DNA of 64,000 bases. It comes from Oscillospiraceae bacterium. Its GTDB lineage: Bacteria > Bacillota > Clostridia > Oscillospirales > Ruminococcaceae. The stretch lies in NCBI GenBank assembly GCA_017547245.1, contig JAFYQD010000007.1, positions 62,001-126,000 on the forward strand. Reading direction: 5' to 3'. A model generated the notes under the pieces. It saw only the letters and a program-made list of their open reading frames with translations. It had not been told where the DNA came from and did not search any database. This document shows positions 17,615-27,540 of this stretch, piece after piece (positions within the stretch are counted from its first letter, which is position 1; each line of letters starts with the position of its first letter). A program made the translations under genes and the position numbers.

Positions 17615-17650
17615 TTGAAGCGTAGGGAATATTTTTGTAAGGAGATGCAT

Positions 17651-17863
17651 ATGACTCTGTTGACTGCTCTGGAAGGCAAAGAATACATCATCAAAGATAT
17701 TGATACGGATGATGAGGAACTGAATGCATTTCTGTTTTCGCTGGGCTGCTACAGCGGCGAACCCATTACTGTGGTTTCGCGCCGCCGCGGAAGCTGTGTG
17801 GTTTCCATCAAGGATGGCCGCTACAACATCGACAGGCAGCTGGCTGATGCCATCGTCGTATAA
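17651..17863 (+). CDS. feoA: FeoA domain protein, ferrous iron transport
   Basis: A 70-residue SH3-like FeoA protein, thought to assist FeoB. It shows the family pattern of an N-terminal strand, LGCYSGEPITVVSRRRGSCVVSIKDGRYNIDRQLADAIVV. ATG 17651 follows AAGGAGA; the frame open 12 codons upstream is not preceded by a site. Unlike many operons it is separated from feoB by a hairpin with a T run and by a further operator. Confidence 0.92.
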   Translation: MTLLTALEGKEYIIKDIDTDDEELNAFLFSLGCYSGEPITVVSRRRGSCVVSIKDGRYNIDRQLADAIVV

Positions 17864-17880
17864 TCGACGGCCAGCAAACG

Positions 17881-17909
17881 CCGGAAGGAAGTCTTCCGGT
17901 TGTTTTTTT
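17881..17909 (+). terminator. Terminator or attenuator between feoA and feoB
   Basis: CCGGAA and TTCCGG flank a seven-base loop (17881-17899), then TTGTTTTTTT. Stem is short, so termination may be partial. Confidence 0.65.
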
Positions 17910-17919
17910 GGAGAACCAG

Positions 17920-17933
17920 TTAGATGTATCTAA
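17920..17933 (+). promoter_or_regulatory. Operator dyad upstream of feoB
   Basis: TTAGATGTATCTAA, perfectly symmetric in its TTAGA/TCTAA arms and of the same form as the two feoA boxes. It lies in the spacer of a possible promoter (TTGGAG at 17909-17914 and TAACTT near 17931), suggesting feoB is also controlled on its own. Confidence 0.7.
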
Positions 17934-17991
17934 CTTAATTTGCATTAGAAAATTTATGTAAGGATACCCAAAGATAGGGAGGAGAAGAAAA

Positions 17992-19995
17992 ATGAGAATT
18001 GCTTTTGCGGGCAATCCCAACAGCGGTAAAACCACCATGTACAATGCGCTTACCGGCCGCAATGAAAAGGTTGGCAACTGGGCCGGTGTTACCGTTGACA
18101 AAAAAGAGGCTTTGATCAAAAAGACATATGCAGGCAATGCCCAATTGGTTGCAATTGACCTGCCGGGTGCCTATTCCATGTCGCCTTTTACTTCGGAAGA
18201 AAGCATCACCAGCTCTTACATAAAAGAAGCTAACCTTGATGTTATCATCAACATCGTGGATGCCACCAATCTCAGCCGCAGCCTGTTCTTCACCACCCAG
18301 CTGCTGGAGTTGGGTGTACCCGTTGTGGTAGCCCTGAACAAGGCCGACATCAACGAAAAGAAGGAAACCGAAATTGACGTTAAGGCGCTGTCGGCTGCCT
18401 TGGGCTGCCCGGTTGTCGAAACCGTTTCCACCCATACCGAAGGTTTGGCTGAAGTGGTCAGAGCTGCCGTTGCTCTGGAAGGGAAGAGCCAGAAGGCTCC
18501 CTATACTCAGGGTGCGGTTGATTTGTCGGACAAGAAGGCTGTTGAGGCTGCCGACCGCAAGCGTTTTGAGTTTGTCAACAAGATCGTTGCTTCCGTCGAG
18601 ACCCGTAAGGTTCTGACCAAGGAACGTAATTTCCAGGATAAGATTGACGCTGTGCTGACCAACCCTGTGGCAGGTATCATTATTTTTGCCGCTGTTATGT
18701 TCTTGGTGTTTGACATTTCCCAGTCCTCCTTTGGCCCTTGGGTCGCAGATATTCTGGTTGGCTGGATTGAAAGTTTTCAGGCTTGGGCGGCCGAACTGGT
18801 GTCTGGGGCTTCGCCTTTGGTGCAGGCTTTGCTGATTGACGGCATCATCGGTGGTGTTGGTGCGGTTGTTGGATTTTTGCCTCTTGTTATGGTCATGTAT
18901 TTCTTCATCGCTTTGTTGGAAGACTGCGGTTATATGGCCCGAGCCACCGTGGTGCTTGACCCCATCTTCAAAAAGGTTGGCCTGTCGGGCAAGTCGGTCA
19001 TTCCCTTTGTCATTGGTACCGGCTGCGCCATCCCCGGCGTTATGGCCTGCCGTACCATCCGCAACGAGCGTGAACGCCGTGCCACCGCTATGCTGACTCC
19101 TTTTATGCCCTGTGGAGCAAAGCTGCCTGTAATTGCCCTGTTTGCCGGTGCTTTTTTTGAAGATGCCTCCTGGGTGGGAACCCTGATGTATTTTGCAGGC
19201 ATCATGCTGATTTTGGTGGGTGCTGTTTTGGTAAACAAAATTTCCGGCAGCAAAAACCGCAAGTCCTACTTTATCATCGAGCTTCCCGAATACAAAATCC
19301 CTTCGGTCAAGCGTGCGTTCTATTCCATGTGCTCCCGTGGGTGGGCCTATGTCGTAAAGGCTGCCACCATCATTCTGTTGTGCAACACCGTTGTCCAGCT
19401 GATGCAGACCTTTACCTGGAACTTCAGAATTGCTGAGGTTGCAAGCGAATCCATTCTGGCCTCTATCGCCAACCCTTTTGCCTATGCTCTTGTACCCATT
19501 GTTGGTGTATTGTCCTGGCAGCTGGCTGCCGCAGCCGTTACCGGATTTATTGCCAAAGAAAATGTTGTCGGAACGCTGGCGGTTTGCTATGTCGGCCTTG
19601 AAAACCTGATCGATACCGAAGAACTGGCCCTGTTGGAAGGCGCCGGTGCCGAGGTTGCTTCGGTGTTTGCCATCACCAAGGTTGCCGCTTTGGCCTACCT
19701 GATGTTCAACCTGTATACCCCTCCTTGCTTTGCTGCGCTGGGTGCCATGAACTCTGAGATCAACGACCGCAAATGGTTCTGGGGCGGCGTTGGTCTGCAG
19801 CTGGCCACCGGCTACACCGTGGGCTATCTGGTATACACCCTTGGCACTCTGTTTACCGATCCTGCTTCGTTGAACCTTGGTGCAGCCGTTTGCGGAGCCA
19901 TTGTGGTGTCGTTCTTTGCCGCTGTCATCATTACACGCATCAGAAAGGCCAATGCAGATTTGAATGCTGAATATGCTTTGAAAGGGAAGAAGTAA
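17992..19995 (+). CDS. feoB: Ferrous iron transporter FeoB
   Basis: A 667-residue Fe(II) transporter. The N-terminal G-protein domain has G1 GNPNSGKT (7-14), a G3 DLPGAYS and G4 ALNKAD. A helical GDI-like spacer follows, then the membrane part with two Gate-type repeats, including GFLPLVMVMYFFIALLEDCGYMARA and the FVIGTGCAIPGVMACRT segment with the conserved Cys. It ends in a charged tail. A start ATG with AGGAG upstream is clear. It is followed six bases later by a small Cys-rich protein, as in many clostridial feo operons. Confidence 0.97.
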   Translation: MRIAFAGNPNSGKTTMYNALTGRNEKVGNWAGVTVDKKEALIKKTYAGNAQLVAIDLPGAYSMSPFTSEESITSSYIKEANLDVIINIVDATNLSRSLFFTTQLLELGVPVVVALNKADINEKKETEIDVKALSAALGCPVVETVSTHTEGLAEVVRAAVALEGKSQKAPYTQGAVDLSDKKAVEAADRKRFEFVNKIVASVETRKVLTKERNFQDKIDAVLTNPVAGIIIFAAVMFLVFDISQSSFGPWVADILVGWIESFQAWAAELVSGASPLVQALLIDGIIGGVGAVVGFLPLVMVMYFFIALLEDCGYMARATVVLDPIFKKVGLSGKSVIPFVIGTGCAIPGVMACRTIRNERERRATAMLTPFMPCGAKLPVIALFAGAFFEDASWVGTLMYFAGIMLILVGAVLVNKISGSKNRKSYFIIELPEYKIPSVKRAFYSMCSRGWAYVVKAATIILLCNTVVQLMQTFTWNFRIAEVASESILASIANPFAYALVPIVGVLSWQLAAAAVTGFIAKENVVGTLAVCYVGLENLIDTEELALLEGAGAEVASVFAITKVAALAYLMFNLYTPPCFAALGAMNSEINDRKWFWGGVGLQLATGYTVGYLVYTLGTLFTDPASLNLGAAVCGAIVVSFFAAVIITRIRKANADLNAEYALKGKK

Positions 19996-20000
19996 ATAGA

Positions 20001-20189
20001 ATGACCGATATTATCATCATTGCCGTAATTGCAGTTATTGTCGGCTTGGCCGCAGGCTATGTCTATAAGGCGAAAAAGAGCGGGAAAAAGTGCATCGGCT
20101 GTCCCGATGCCTGCAACTGTTCGGCTGCGCAGAAAGGCGGAGCCTCCTGCGGCGGCTGCTGTGGCTGCGGTGCTGCTCCCAAAGAATAA
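20001..20189 (+). CDS. FeoB-associated Cys-rich membrane protein
   Basis: A 62-residue protein with one N-terminal membrane helix (about residues 3-22), a basic KAKKSGKK hinge and a tail with eight cysteines, including CIGC, CNC and CGGCCGC. Small Cys-rich proteins of this kind commonly sit behind feoB in Firmicutes and may act where FeoC does in enterobacteria, or bind iron at the membrane; neither role is proven. The start lies six bases after the feoB stop. Confidence 0.88.
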   Translation: MTDIIIIAVIAVIVGLAAGYVYKAKKSGKKCIGCPDACNCSAAQKGGASCGGCCGCGAAPKE

Positions 20190-21020: not shown

Positions 21021-21533
21021 TTATGCCGTTGGGGGCTCGGGCTGCGGCATCACCAATCCATGCATAAATCCATCCAGTTCCAGACTGCAGATATCTCCGC
21101 CCACCAGCCGTTCTTTATACACCAACAGGTTGGCCCGTACATTCTGTCCTCCGCTGGGGTGGTTCAAGATGGAATAGCTGTAACATTTCATCTGACGTCC
21201 TGCATAGGGGGTCAGGTCAAAGCCCTGCGCCAGCTGGATTTGATTGTAGTTTTGATAAACCTCATCAAACTCCAATGGAATAACTACATCCTTGACTTCG
21301 GCCGTTTCCTCGTCCACCTGCCATCCAAGACCGATCAAAAAATCAATGCGGTTTTGTCTTTGGTCGGCATCTTTCAGGTTCATTGAGTGGCCGAATACCT
21401 CTGAAGCTGAAGGAATATCGGAGATTTGGCCGCTTACCAGAAGAACCCCGCCCAAAACCAGTGCAGCGGCTCCGATGCAGCAAAGGATGCGCTGCTTTTT
21501 TCGGGTAATGTATACTGCAAAAATACAGATCAC
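21021..21533 (-). CDS. DUF4830 domain-containing membrane-anchored protein
   Basis: About 167-170 residues with one N-terminal membrane helix (IGAAALVLGGVLLVSG) and an extracytoplasmic domain of the DUF4830 type: RIDFLIGLGWQVDEE, IPLEFDEVYQNYNQIQ, GFDLTPYAGRQMK and VGGDICSLELDGFMHGL. Function of the family is unknown; it is common in Clostridia. The start is odd. The only canonical in-frame start, GTG at 21533, is inside the AGGAGGTG site itself, whereas an ATT codon at 21524 sits at normal distance and would give a typical short N-terminus before TRKKQR. Confidence 0.85.
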   Translation of the reverse strand: MICIFAVYITRKKQRILCCIGAAALVLGGVLLVSGQISDIPSASEVFGHSMNLKDADQRQNRIDFLIGLGWQVDEETAEVKDVVIPLEFDEVYQNYNQIQLAQGFDLTPYAGRQMKCYSYSILNHPSGGQNVRANLLVYKERLVGGDICSLELDGFMHGLVMPQPEPPTA

Positions 21534-21595
21534 CTCCTATGCCATTTATATGCAGGGCATCGACCGAAAAGCAGGCGGCTGCCCTTACAAAAAAA

Positions 21596-21624
21596 TTGAA
21601 ATAAACCATCGTTTTTGGTAAGAT
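21596..21624 (+). promoter_or_regulatory. Promoter of the lipoprotein/subtilase pair
   Basis: TTGAAA (21596-21601), 17 bases, TAAGAT (21619-21624), 25 bases before the lipoprotein start. Confidence 0.6.
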
Positions 21625-21649
21625 AAAGGTGAAAAAGGAGGGCTGCACA

Positions 21650-21958
21650 ATGTCAAAGGTATTGATAGCTGTATTTTGCCTGCTGCTGTTGTGCGGCTGT
21701 GCCAATTCGGACGGAAAGCAGCAGCTGCCTCTTGCCGAAAGGGAAGCAGTGGTTGAGGGTGCCGAGGTGTTCTGCCTGGCCCAAACCGAAGAAGAAGCCG
21801 AAGCCATCGCTGCCCGTTACGGCATCGAATTGGTTGATTTTGAGTCCGGAGTGGCTGCTTTTCATACCCAAGAGGACTGGTATGAACTGATTGAAAGGGG
21901 AAAGGAACAGGGCTGGCCCGAACTTTCGCCCAACTACCTGACCAAGTTTGAAGAATAA
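21650..21958 (+). CDS. Small lipoprotein resembling the prodomain of the adjacent subtilase
   Basis: A 102-residue protein with a lipoprotein signal: MSKVLIAVFC then LLLLCGC, lipid-anchored Cys at 17. Residues 38-76 align without gaps to residues 129-167 of the subtilase encoded next (12 of 39 identical, sharing E..A..E.AE..A..Y...LV....GVA). That stretch lies just before the subtilase catalytic domain, where an I9-type prodomain is expected. I infer a free-standing prodomain homologue that could act as inhibitor or folding helper for the protease. The start ATG has AAGGAGG at normal distance. The gap to the protease gene is 32 bases, so they are very likely co-transcribed. Confidence 0.8.
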   Translation: MSKVLIAVFCLLLLCGCANSDGKQQLPLAEREAVVEGAEVFCLAQTEEEAEAIAARYGIELVDFESGVAAFHTQEDWYELIERGKEQGWPELSPNYLTKFEE

Positions 21959-21990
21959 TCAAGTTTACCCTTGCCCAAAGGAGGGTTACC

Positions 21991-24900
21991 ATGAAACAAC
22001 TTGTTTACAGAATATTCGCCGTACTGCTTGCTGTGCTGATGGCTTTTTCGCCCTGCACGGTGGCTTTGGCCGATGCTGTTCTTGCGGCTGAGGCAGAAGA
22101 TATGGTTGAACAGCTTGCGGAAGATTTGTCCCAACAGAACCCAGAAGAGGCACCCTTGACTGAAGAAAAGCAGAATGAGCAGCCTGAACCTTTGGAGGAA
22201 GAACTGCCTCTGCAAGACAGTACAGAAGAAACGGATGAAAAAAGCTATGTTTTTCAGGGCTTCCCACAAGGCTATGAACTGAGCCGTGCAGAACTTGACG
22301 CAAAGGCACTGCTGACCGACCTGAAAGTTTTGGAAGCTCTGCTTGAGTCCCAGCCCGGTGTGGACTATGTGGAAGACGAGATTATTGTAATGGCCGAAGA
22401 TGCCGAATATGCCGAGCTGTCTGCCGTGGCTTACAACGGCAGCCTTGTGTCCTATGCAGATGGCGTGGCGGTCATCCGACTGACTGATGCTTCCGTTCTT
22501 GAGGCTATCGAGGCTGCTGCCGATATGGATTTTGCAGTTCCTGCGGCAGACCCCAACTGGATTACATGGATAGAACCCTGCGAAGAAGAGGAAACAGACT
22601 TTGCACTTTTTGCCGCAGCAGAAGATGTTCCGGTCAAACAAAGCTGGGAAAACTGGTACCATGGTCTATTGGAAGATGATGACAGCAGCACCAACCCCGA
22701 TACCTGGCTGATTAATCCCAATTACTTTGAAAATAACAAATATCAGTGGATGCACGACATGGTAAACAGCTATGAGGCCTGGGGCAGCAGCACCGGCAGC
22801 GGTGTTACTGTGGCGGTCATCGACAGCGGTGTAAGAAGCACCCATAAAGAGCTGAAAAACCGTGTTGAGGTTCTTTCGGTGGCGGACCTGAGCACCGACC
22901 CCTATGGCAATCACGCCACCCACGTGGCGGCCATCATTGCCGGCCAAATGGGCAATGGTTATATGGGGGCAGGCATTGCACCCGATGCCAGAATCCTTTC
23001 GCTGCGTGTTGTAGACAACAGCGGCAGCATAACCGCAAAAAACCTTGCGGCAGCCATCAATCAGGCTGTATACAAAGGTGCCGACATCATCAACCTTAGC
23101 CTGGGCACTTACAGCCCTGCCTCGGCACACCAAACAGCCATCTCCAAGGCGGTTGAAGCAGGGGTGGTGGTGGTGGCTGCCATCGGTAACGATGGCTCCA
23201 ACATCAAATGCTATCCCGCTGCCTACGATAATGTCATTGCCGTTGCGGCAGTGAACAAAGACGGAACCGCAGCCACCTTCAGTGATTTTGGCGACTGGGC
23301 CGATATTTCGGCCCCCGGCGTTGATATCTATTCGGCCTATGCCACCAGCGACACCTCCTCCGGCAAAATGAGCGGTACCTCGCAGGCCAGTCCTGTGGTA
23401 TCCGGTGTGGCAGCCCTTTACCTCAGCCGCAACCCCGGTGCCACCCCTGCCGAAGTGGAAGAAGTATTGAAGAAAACTGCGGCAAAGGCTTCTTCCAAAG
23501 AAATAGGCGGCATTGTGGATGCTTCCAGGTTGTTTGAGCAGGAACAGGCAGCCCCTGTTATCTCGGTTATACACGAGGAGGTTGAATTCAATTCCGGAGA
23601 TACGGTTCCCTATCATGCCGAGTTCAGCATCCAAAGGGAAAACGGTGCTTCCGAAGAAGACTTTATCCTTTTTACCCTGAATGGCAAGAACCCTTCCATC
23701 AAGGAGGGCGAGGTGGTCAGCGGGTTTGTTTATGATGCATCTGCCGACAACAGAATTTCTGATTTGGTGGAACAATATGATGCCCCGTTGGGGAAACCCT
23801 TTACCCTCAAGGCTCTTGTGGTCAATAATCAGGGTGTGGCAAGCAAGGTTTCTTCCTTCAAGATGGTTTGCGGCTATAACCCCGATGTGGAACAGGTAAA
23901 GATTACCTCCGATCGGGAAATCAGCTTGCTTTCGGGCAAAACAATAACATTGGGGGCTGTTGTGCAGCCTGCCACAGCCAATCCCGACGTTTTGTGGACG
24001 GTTGACCTGAACGGAATGGGGGAAGACCGCGTCAGAATAGATGCCCAAAGCGGCAAACTTACCACCAAAGCAGGAACCATGGGGAGCGTTGTTGTGCGTG
24101 CAACTGCCGCCAACGGCGCATATGATGAAATCACAGTGAAAATCAGCCAGCCGGAAAAGGCAGCCAGAATGGTGATAGAAGCTCCCGTTAAAACCATTGC
24201 CATGCCCCGTGTGGGTCAGCAGGCCGAAACAGTCTGCCTGACCGCAGCGGCTTTTAACGCCAAGGGGAACCGGCTGGAAGAAACAGCTTTTCATTGGGTC
24301 AGCAGCAATCCTTCGGTGCTGTGGGTGGACGGTCAGACTGGTGAGATCCGGCCCCGTGCAAAGGGCTCGGCTACCATTACCTGCAAAGCATTGGATGGCA
24401 GCGGAAAGAGTGCCAAAAGCACCATTTCGGTTACCCAGCCGGTAGAAGAAATCATCCTCAGTGCAAACGCTCAGGTTACTGCAGGCAGCTATGCCACCGT
24501 CAAGGCTCAGGTTTTGCCTCAAACGGCCAACAACAAAAAGGTGACATGGATCATTGACCAGAAAGCGCTTGCCGCAGGTGCCAAAATAACTTCGGGCAAG
24601 CTTTCCCTGCCCAAAGGCTTCGGCGAGCCTTGTGTCGAGGTGACGGCAGCCTCGTCTGACGGCATTTCGGCTTCTGTACAGATAGAGGTGCTTGACAGCA
24701 AGGCAAAGTCGGTGACCATACGCACATTGGATCCCCGTGCCGAATACAACAGCAGGGGAGTGCTGACCGCGGCATCGGTTTATTCGGTGGATATTCTGCC
24801 GGCAGAAACCTATTTCCCCGAAGATATGGAAAATCGCATTGACCTGACCGCGGCGGCTGACAACGGAGCTATGATTGCGTGGAGCAGCAGCAACCCTAAA

Positions 24901-25808: not shown

Positions 25809-26237
25809 TTAGTGTTCGTGGCAGGCTTCGCAGTCAGCGATGCAGCCAACAATGGGTTCGGGGTCGATGCCCTGACGGGTATAGTAGTCAGACAGGGCAG
25901 ACTTGATGGCCTGTTCGGCCAGAACCGAGCAGTGAATCTTGGAGGTGGGCAGACCGTCCAGAGCTTCAACAACGGCTTTGTTGCTCAGCTGCAGGGCTTC
26001 GCTGATGGTGGAACCCTTGATGAGTTCGGTGGCCATGCTGCTGGTTGCAATGGCGGCGCCGCAGCCAAAGGTCTTGAACTTGACGTCGGTGATTACGTCG
26101 CCTTCAATCTTCAGGTACATACGCATGATGTCGCCGCACTTGGCGTTGCCTACTTCGCCCACGCCGTCGGCGTCGGCAATTTCACCCACATTGCGGGGGT
26201 TGGTAAAATGGTCCAGAACCTTTTCGGAATACAGCAT
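25809..26237 (-). CDS. nifU: Iron-sulfur cluster assembly scaffold, NifU/IscU family
   Basis: A 142-residue scaffold on which Fe-S clusters are built with sulfur from NifS. The three conserved cysteines are C34 (with the Asp of CGD), C59 (FGCGAA) and C103 (HCSVLAEQAI). It ends with an extra CIADCEACHEH tail that adds three cysteines and two histidines, a feature seen in clostridial NifU-like proteins. It lies 24 bases downstream of nifS on the same strand and shares its promoter. Confidence 0.95.
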   Translation of the reverse strand: MLYSEKVLDHFTNPRNVGEIADADGVGEVGNAKCGDIMRMYLKIEGDVITDVKFKTFGCGAAIATSSMATELIKGSTISEALQLSNKAVVEALDGLPTSKIHCSVLAEQAIKSALSDYYTRQGIDPEPIVGCIADCEACHEH

Positions 26238-26261
26238 CTATCAACAGTCCTTTCTGTACAT

Positions 26262-27458
26262 TCAGTTGTTGGCGGCGTCTTCCTGCACAATACGTTCCCA
26301 AACGGGGGACATTTCACGCAGGCGACCAATCACCTTGGGCAGAGCTTCGATGATCTGGTCAACGTCTTCTTCGGTGTTCATGTCGCTGAAGCTTACACGC
26401 AGCGAACCATGGGCAATTTCGTGGGGCAGGCCGATGGAAAGCAGCACATGGCTGGGATCCAGCGAGCCGGAAGTGCAGGCCGAACCGGAGGAGGCGGCAA
26501 CACCTTCATTGTCCAGCATCAGCAGCAGGGCTTCGCCTTCCACACCTTCAAAGCTGATGTTGGCGTTACCGGGCAGACGCTGCACACGGTCACCGTTCAG
26601 GCGGCTGTGGGGAATCTGCAGGGCGGCGTCGATCAGACGTTCACGCATGGCCAAGGCCTTGGCGGCGTTGGCTTCCAGGTCACGGTGGGCAGCCTCGATG
26701 GCCACACCCATGCCTACGATGGAGGCAACGTTTTCGGTGCCGGCACGGCGGCCCTTTTCCTGTCCGCCGCCGTCAATCAGGTTGGGCAGAATGATGCTTC
26801 CCTGACGAACATACAGTGCGCCAACGCCCTTGGGGGCATGGAACTTGTGGCCCGACAGCGAAAGCATGTCGATATTCATGGCCTTCACGTCAATGCGCAC
26901 ATGGCCAATGGCCTGCACGGCATCGGTGTGGAACAGCACACCGGCTTCTTTGCAGATGGCGCCGATTTCGGCAATGGGCTGAATGGTGCCGATTTCGTTG
27001 TTGGCAAACATAATGCTTACCAAAGCGGTGTCGGGACGCAGGGCAGCCTTCAGGTCATCCAGATGGATGATGCCGTTTTCATAAACGGGCAGATAGGTAA
27101 CTTCAAAGCCTTCCTTTTCCAGCGCGGCTGCGGTGTGCAGGATGGCGTGATGTTCAAATACGGTGGTAATCAGGTGTTTTTTGCCCTTGGCGGCCAGCTT
27201 ATGCATGGCACCCTTCAGGGCCCAGTTGTCGCTTTCGCTGCCGCAGCCGGTAAAGTAGATTTCCCCGGGCTTGCAGTTCAGCACATCGGCCACCTGCTGG
27301 CGGGCCTTAACCAGAGCAAAGCCGGCTTCACGACCCTTGGCATAAATGCTGCTGGCGTTGCCGTAACCTTCGGTCAGCCAGGGCATCATGGCGTCCAGCA
27401 CCTCTTTGCTGATGGGGGTGGTGGCGGCGTTGTCGGCATATACATAATGTTTGTTCAA
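26262..27458 (-). CDS. nifS: Cysteine desulfurase, NifS/IscS family
   Basis: A 398-residue PLP enzyme that takes sulfur from cysteine for cluster assembly. Signs: N-terminal [21 protein letters not shown], the PLP lysine in [28 protein letters not shown] and the active-site cysteine in [17 protein letters not shown]. The start is TTG at 27458, six bases after GGGAGGAA; the upstream ATG at 27473 would place the site inside the gene. It is the first gene of a nifS-nifU operon preceded by a promoter that overlaps a palindrome. Confidence 0.96.
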
Positions 27459-27540
27459 ATCTATTCCTCCCATTGGTACGGAATGGGTTTCCGTCACGGT
27501 TTATCTTGGTCGTTTCGACAGAATACTGCTGTCTGAGTTA

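Follow-up and report, generated by a model that had tools for sequence, protein, structure and literature searches.

Homology and conserved pairing of a stand-alone, apparently membrane-anchored subtilase prodomain with its neighboring protease

The sparing of its own surface by a protease-secreting cell is usually credited to the cis prodomain of the protease, which departs together with it. As a rule, a subtilisin propeptide inhibits its cognate enzyme strongly, and all of the stand-alone propeptide-like inhibitors named in the introduction of the same paper are eukaryotic (PMC6993865). Among these, SUB1-ProM of Plasmodium is a stand-alone mimic of a subtilase propeptide. Its locus adjoins subtilase genes, and the protein has an Asn/Asp capping residue and a tail whose length varies among orthologues and has been shown to inhibit its subtilase (PMC6993865). 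In this work, we describe a bacterial gene pair found in 64,000 nucleotides of an Oscillospiraceae bacterium genome (GenBank assembly GCA_017547245.1, contig JAFYQD010000007.1, positions 62,001 to 126,000; this whole stretch is called the window). There, the gene for a 102-residue lipoprotein (P0001, 21650..21958, + strand) is followed by that of a 1252-residue subtilase (P0002, 21991..25749, + strand), and comparison of the two proteins and their relatives indicates that the lipoprotein carries a detached copy of the subtilase prodomain.

The likeness of this pair to described systems is partial. SUB1-ProM is eukaryotic, and the cited passages on it do not mention a membrane anchor (PMC6993865). 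POIA1, the yeast proteinase B inhibitor, Arabidopsis SPI-1, and TgMIC5 are also small, free-standing mimics of the subtilisin-propeptide fold, but all are eukaryotic, and the first three are said to show no significant sequence similarity (PMC6993865). In contrast, the bacterial stand-alone proteins are detectably homologous to the prodomain of their partner protease and, unlike this eukaryotic group, appear to be membrane-anchored. The fold of Spi, from Streptococcus pyogenes, is not known to be related to that of the subtilase prodomain. Spi resembles the present system in being a propeptide analogue encoded beside the protease that it inhibits, SpeB, but its target is a C10 cysteine protease, and an anchor is not mentioned for Spi in the cited passages (PMC2873492). 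Bfi1B and Bfi4 of Bacteroides fragilis are, like the window lipoprotein, small predicted lipoproteins; as putative inhibitors, they have genes that lie no more than 35 bases from those of proteases, and bfp1 and bfp4 are co-transcribed with their inhibitor genes, but the inhibitors are staphostatin-like, reportedly have no significant identity to propeptides, and are paired with cysteine proteases (PMC2873492). Lif/LipH is a steric chaperone that is anchored to the membrane and serves a secreted enzyme (PMC3352829, PMC13381987), but its client is a lipase. A bacterial membrane-tethered stand-alone subtilase prodomain was not found in the open-access literature searched, with most subscription journals and preprints lying outside it.

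The lipoprotein comprises a signal sequence with an LCGC lipobox (Cys17), a short linker, and the stand-alone prodomain (residues 36-102, 21755..21955, + strand), which was delimited by shuffle-tested alignment and profile-profile comparison. In the subtilase, the homologous prodomain (residues 119-200, 22345..22590, + strand, placed by shuffles, profiles, and the Pfam family PF22148) lies ahead of a Peptidase_S8 catalytic domain (residues 269-500, 22795..23490, + strand, expectation value (E) 4.1e-48). A preliminary description of the locus had reported 12 identities in an ungapped alignment of 39 residues between lipoprotein positions 38-76 and subtilase positions 129-167; recomputation returned exactly this count, at the best position in the whole protease. 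This alignment alone is weak, as 39 of 2000 shuffled 39-mers obtain 12 identities somewhere in the protease. With gaps allowed, lipoprotein residues 39-101 aligned with subtilase residues 130-195 at a Smith-Waterman score of 71; 2000 shuffled sequences averaged 35 and peaked at 56, with none reaching this value. When the window's own genome was searched with tblastn, lipoprotein residues 38-101 matched the prodomain with 33% identity at E 0.035; counting against the proposed relationship, this match ranked below an unrelated one to the signal region (E 0.008), so single-sequence comparisons are not decisive. In shuffle tests of ten stand-alone/subtilase combinations, the observed score was equaled in 0 of 300 shuffles for nine combinations and in 4 of 300 for the one from locus L034 (the long alignments of L095 take in low-complexity linkers). 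The comparison of a profile of four stand-alone proteins with one of four prodomains gave a probability of 95.8% (P 7.6e-9), and that of nine stand-alone proteins with ten prodomains gave a probability of 99.4% (P 5.8e-21) over 72 columns.

A chance resemblance of an unrelated lipoprotein would account for the ungapped score being reached by shuffled sequences and for the rank of the prodomain in the tblastn search, but it is exceedingly improbable given the gapped and profile alignments, the consistent gene pairing, and the PF22148 matches of three stand-alone proteins. Sequence comparison confirms that the homology between the lipoprotein and the pre-catalytic stretch of the subtilase covers the entire domain of ∼65-70 residues. 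The interpretation of the lipoprotein as a detached prodomain, made in the preliminary description, is upheld by these alignments and by the recurrence of the pair in 37 genomes. The span given there, residues 38-76, lies within the homologous region, which extends beyond 39 residues to include a C-terminal part with Asn95. The domain profiles had no meaningful match in the Protein Data Bank.

PF22148, the fervidolysin N-terminal prodomain (curated cut-off 21 bits), matched the window subtilase at residues 119-178, just ahead of Peptidase_S8, with 22.9 bits for the whole protein and 27.7 bits for the slice, and it was listed for eight of ten subtilase prodomains at E ≤1. It also exceeded the cut-off in three of 11 stand-alone proteins scanned (L095, 31.2 bits; L134, 28.5 bits; L135, 27.3 bits), whereas no Pfam family did so in the other eight, which include the window's copy. 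For the window lipoprotein, PF22148 was unlisted for the whole protein at E ≤10 and for its domain at E ≤1, and the tie of this protein to the family runs only via the profile alignments of stand-alone proteins with prodomains. The family is, in addition, named for the N-terminal portion of a protease and not for a separate membrane-bound protein. An I9-type prodomain had been placed before the catalytic domain in the preliminary description, which also looked to the I9 family for relatives of the lipoprotein; a prodomain is present at that position, but Inhibitor_I9 was absent from the Pfam families listed for the lipoprotein, the subtilase, and the 19 domains of the profile comparison. Judged by these profile matches, the nearest Pfam family of the stand-alone proteins is the fervidolysin-type prodomain rather than the Inhibitor_I9 model.

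The searches for relatives yielded, with the window's own pair included, 44 stand-alone proteins and 54 subtilases in 37 genomes, of which 30 belong to a sample of one genus (that of genome G1186) and seven, with one pair each, lie outside that sample. All of the stand-alone proteins are separate open frames of 102-226 codons. Each of the 44 adjoins a subtilase with a homologous prodomain on the same contig and strand, with the stand-alone gene upstream in 34 cases and downstream in ten; for many members from the genus, adjacency was judged from the distance between matches. Both gene orders also occur among named relatives, at two loci identified by scanning genome contigs. The subtilase gene leads in Butyrivibrio sp. 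UBA3740 (L033), where the stand-alone gene begins at or within ∼12 bases of the subtilase end; the order is reversed in Pseudoflavonifractor sp. MSJ-30 (L034). The co-occurrence that the preliminary description proposed to survey is borne out by these data, and stand-alone proteins found regularly without a subtilase, which were named there as an argument to the contrary, were seen in none of the 44 cases. Conversely, a stand-alone gene lies within 16 kilobases (kb) for 53 of the 54 subtilases found by this prodomain, with tandem arrays sharing one. The latter figure is uninformative about subtilases with other prodomains because the subtilases were found through prodomains of the pair type.

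The distribution of the pair was examined in several overlapping genome samples, and the prevalence figures are valid for those samples only. A search of 61 genomes gave a match at E ≤1 in 28, all weak apart from the window and genome G035. In the family sample of 396 genomes described below, weak matches in G497, G529, and G712 were rejected as unrelated genes when their loci were inspected. Whole-genome searches added pairs in G035, G584, G1105, G1186, and G1190. True matches in the wider samples numbered 3 of 396 genomes for the family, 2 of 391 for the class, 3 of 200 for the family of G1105, and 1 of 329 for the phylum, the last being the window itself. In the genus of G1186, a combined profile of the 19 domains gave 84 matches at E ≤0.001 in 30 of 60 genomes, which open-frame length divided into 37 stand-alone and 47 protease-embedded domains (one frame in the latter class, from G1364, has only 398 codons). 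Both genes were matched in these 30 genomes and neither in the other 30, many of the genomes being incomplete. From these results, we conclude that the distribution of the pair is patchy and that, in the samples examined, both genes come and go together.

A full-length profile that included the signal peptides (A1) matched at least 244 of 394 genomes, but most of the listed matches covered the signal region. These were set aside by query range, and the best domain-covering matches (L037, L040, and L038) were examined. The subtilases of L037 (G235) and L040 (G062) carry prodomains with an LNxxY ending that are recognized by the lipoprotein profile (E 4.5e-11 for L037, 4.0e-7 for L040); the ∼3 kb of sequence around each showed no stand-alone gene. 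The domain-covering match of L038 is cut by the end of the locus, and its subtilase is unconfirmed.

An N-terminal hydrophobic segment is present in all 44 stand-alone proteins (best 19-residue Kyte-Doolittle mean of 1.58 to 3.92). The window lipoprotein has the LCGC lipobox and Cys17 expected of a bacterial lipoprotein, as judged by pattern and hydrophobicity. By the same approach, a lipobox is predicted in 16 of the 44 proteins and an apparent transmembrane segment in the other 28, some of which could be cleaved signals. A scripted count had given 15 lipid-type and 29 transmembrane-type proteins; three were re-assigned by eye, as L100 and L104 carry LWGC, which was absent from the pattern, and the Cys of L113 lies inside a transmembrane stretch like that of its relatives. 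The lipid tether foreseen in the preliminary description accordingly fits the window's copy and a minority of the family. As hydrophobic N termini of both kinds cover the whole set, tethering seems to be kept while its chemistry changes. Anchor type also departs from the protease tree in places, as the nearest catalytic relative of the lipid-type L103, L107, and L115 is the protease paired with transmembrane-type L131.

Several loci depart from the simple pair. Three subtilases in L147 (G1352 C10, 835-13852) form a tandem array with one shared stand-alone gene, and the two related tandem subtilases of L146 (G1366 C10, 856-9671) likewise have one in common. In two other loci (G1378 C86, 7765-12528, and G1363 C2, 31157-36042), to which stand-alone proteins L107, L137, L138, and L136 belong, a subtilase lies between an upstream and a downstream stand-alone gene; the upstream protein in G1378 C86 is of the lipid type and the downstream one of the transmembrane type.

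The stand-alone proteins show signs of selection and of shared history with their proteases. In 15 of 17 chosen pairs of related stand-alone genes, the ratio of nonsynonymous to synonymous substitution rates (dN/dS) was 0.11-0.34, which indicates purifying selection; dS was saturated in the other two pairs, and the window's own gene, being too distant, was left out. In a tree of nine stand-alone domains and ten prodomains, which has long end branches and leaves most forks open, seven of the stand-alone domains form one clade (98/98 support), and those of L074 and L095 fall among the prodomains. The latter two would be further independent detachments, but a single origin is also compatible with the tree. 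The tandem duplication of a prodomain could by itself yield homology and adjacency, so that the lipoprotein might be a functionless stray copy hitch-hiking with the protease gene. The low dN/dS among relatives, the presence of the pair in 37 genomes, the clade of seven members apart from the prodomains, and the retention of hydrophobic N termini of two kinds make such a degenerate duplicate very improbable. Co-divergence was analyzed for 32 of the 44 stand-alone proteins. Their distances track the distances between the catalytic domains of their partners (r 0.72 for the 32 pairs, and r 0.78 for 26 pairs from the single genus), with none of 5000 permutations as high. This result shows that stand-alone protein and protease are inherited largely as a unit; co-divergence alone is no demonstration of binding.

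The conserved positions of the stand-alone proteins were compared with the capping Asn or Asp of the propeptide, which, according to the description of the SUB1-ProM model, forms a bond with the catalytic core (PMC6993865). In the column that we equate with it from our own alignment (Asn95 in the window lipoprotein), 43 of the 44 stand-alone proteins have Asn (39) or Asp (4), and one has His. All 44 share Ala50, Ala54, and Ala69 (window numbering). The protein with His at the capping column, L111 (230-910), also has a long acidic linker and a tail of three residues.

The explanation that we favor, and regard as probable though far from assured, is that the stand-alone protein is a membrane-tethered prodomain that acts in trans to inhibit its protease at the surface of the producer. 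The small gene encodes a subtilase prodomain separate from the protease, as homology and gene pairing show, and its predicted anchor would fix this domain on the outer face of the membrane. The subtilase's own prodomain, which is present, would serve folding and first inhibition as is expected from its family. The tethered copy would then most likely bind, through its prodomain surface, the catalytic domain of newly exported or returning protease molecules; enzyme bound at the producer's membrane would stay inactive, and enzyme that diffuses off or destroys the tethered copy would turn active. The result would be a self-protective, space-limited inhibitor produced together with the protease. 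We favor inhibition because each neighboring protease has retained a prodomain of its own and because free propeptides are known to act as inhibitors.

Several points weigh against this explanation. The C-terminal tail of subtilisin propeptides enters the active site, but the tail of the stand-alone proteins past the capping column is unconserved, with 3 to 39 residues and no fixed residue. Six places past the capping column, which we take to be the cleavage point of subtilisin propeptides when occupied by Tyr, there is no common residue, and Tyr is found in 11 of the 44 proteins; several members fit a tail that ends at this point, but with so few it was not used as evidence. Full inhibition of Bacillus subtilisins is said to require micromolar propeptide, and propeptides of mesophilic bacteria are said to fold only with their enzyme (PMC10580911). 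One subtilase (G1344 C14, 84424) has its nearest stand-alone gene 12 kb off, and another (L144, 3863-7780, - strand, G1346 C19) has none in ∼4 kb on each side (12 kb); elsewhere, the G1346 genome contains a further subtilase cluster, which includes one stand-alone gene. In addition, the co-divergence of stand-alone proteins and proteases could be plain co-inheritance. The variability of the tail weakens the case for an inhibitor without removing it, because tails vary among SUB1-ProM orthologues and the PfSUB1 propeptide inhibits without needing its tail (PMC6993865). Across the alignment, the core and the putative contact residue are kept, and the part expected to plug the active site is not, a combination compatible with a moderately strong inhibitor, with a foldase, or with a retention partner.

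As a foldase, the tethered protein would be a steric chaperone reused over many exported subtilase molecules, in the manner of Lif/LipH. Steric chaperones include both subtilisin propeptides and Lif, and LipH is membrane-anchored (PMC3352829, PMC13381987). Membrane anchoring would suit a reusable foldase, and a variable tail suits help in folding at least as well as blocking of the active site. However, the subtilases next to all 44 stand-alone genes keep their own prodomain (those without a prodomain would escape this count), which would make a second foldase redundant; one subtilase has no partner nearby, and the three of the L147 array have a single stand-alone protein among them. On balance, we consider a foldase unlikely. 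The tethered prodomain could instead be a non-covalent receptor that retains active protease on the cell rather than blocking it. The window subtilase has no sortase motif or other C-terminal anchor (by eye), the stand-alone partners appear to be membrane-bound, and short, variable tails could leave the active site partly free. We hold retention to be quite doubtful.

Across 37 genomes, a second copy of the prodomain, apparently fixed to the membrane, remains closely tied to its protease. This two-gene arrangement opens the spatial control of a secreted protease to direct testing, offers a natural example of a prodomain function separated from cis folding, and suggests a likely role for small membrane proteins that are mostly unnamed in Pfam. 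More tentatively, Clostridia (a designation taken from two named relatives, Butyrivibrio and Pseudoflavonifractor) may have detached the prodomains of secreted subtilases and anchored them through a lipid or a transmembrane helix for dedicated self-protection, which would constitute a bacterial class of tethered propeptide inhibitors. A cell with such a system would secrete an aggressive protease while its own surface is shielded.

The two genes of the window look like a unit of their own because the gene-like frames on both sides (21021-21533 and 25809-26237, by eye) run on the opposite strand. The single promoter-like candidate ahead of the lipoprotein gene (21596..21624, + strand) has TTGAAA and TAAGAT separated by 17 bases and an extended TG, with nine of 12 consensus matches; it is weak, as shuffled sequences average 0.5 such sites. 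A ribosome-binding site, AGGAGGG (21636..21642, + strand), lies seven bases before the ATG of the lipoprotein gene at 21650. The gap between the lipoprotein and subtilase genes is 32 bases and contains the ribosome-binding site of the latter, AAAGGAGGG (21977..21985, + strand); no terminator-like site was found in 21300-22100.

In the subtilase, an N-terminal signal was recognized by eye, and a search of the window's protease identified bacterial Ig-like (Big_2) repeats. The catalytic residues Asp278, His308, and Ser464, assigned by motif, place it in family S8, and its S8 domain is the only one found in the window's own genome, a 56%-complete assembly. Its His motif (22909-22932) reads NHATHVAA, compared with HGTHVAG in relatives; the catalytic His is retained, the following Gly is replaced by Ala, and an Asn is inserted ahead.

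Upstream of the pair, a set of ferrous iron uptake genes was recognized by eye at 17615-20189, with a FeoA-like protein of 82 residues, a FeoB-like protein of 667 residues, and a 62-residue membrane protein with a Cys-rich tail, presumably of the kind often found behind feoB. Directly downstream of the subtilase gene, frames on the - strand (25809-27497, by eye) resemble IscU and an IscS-type cysteine desulfurase.
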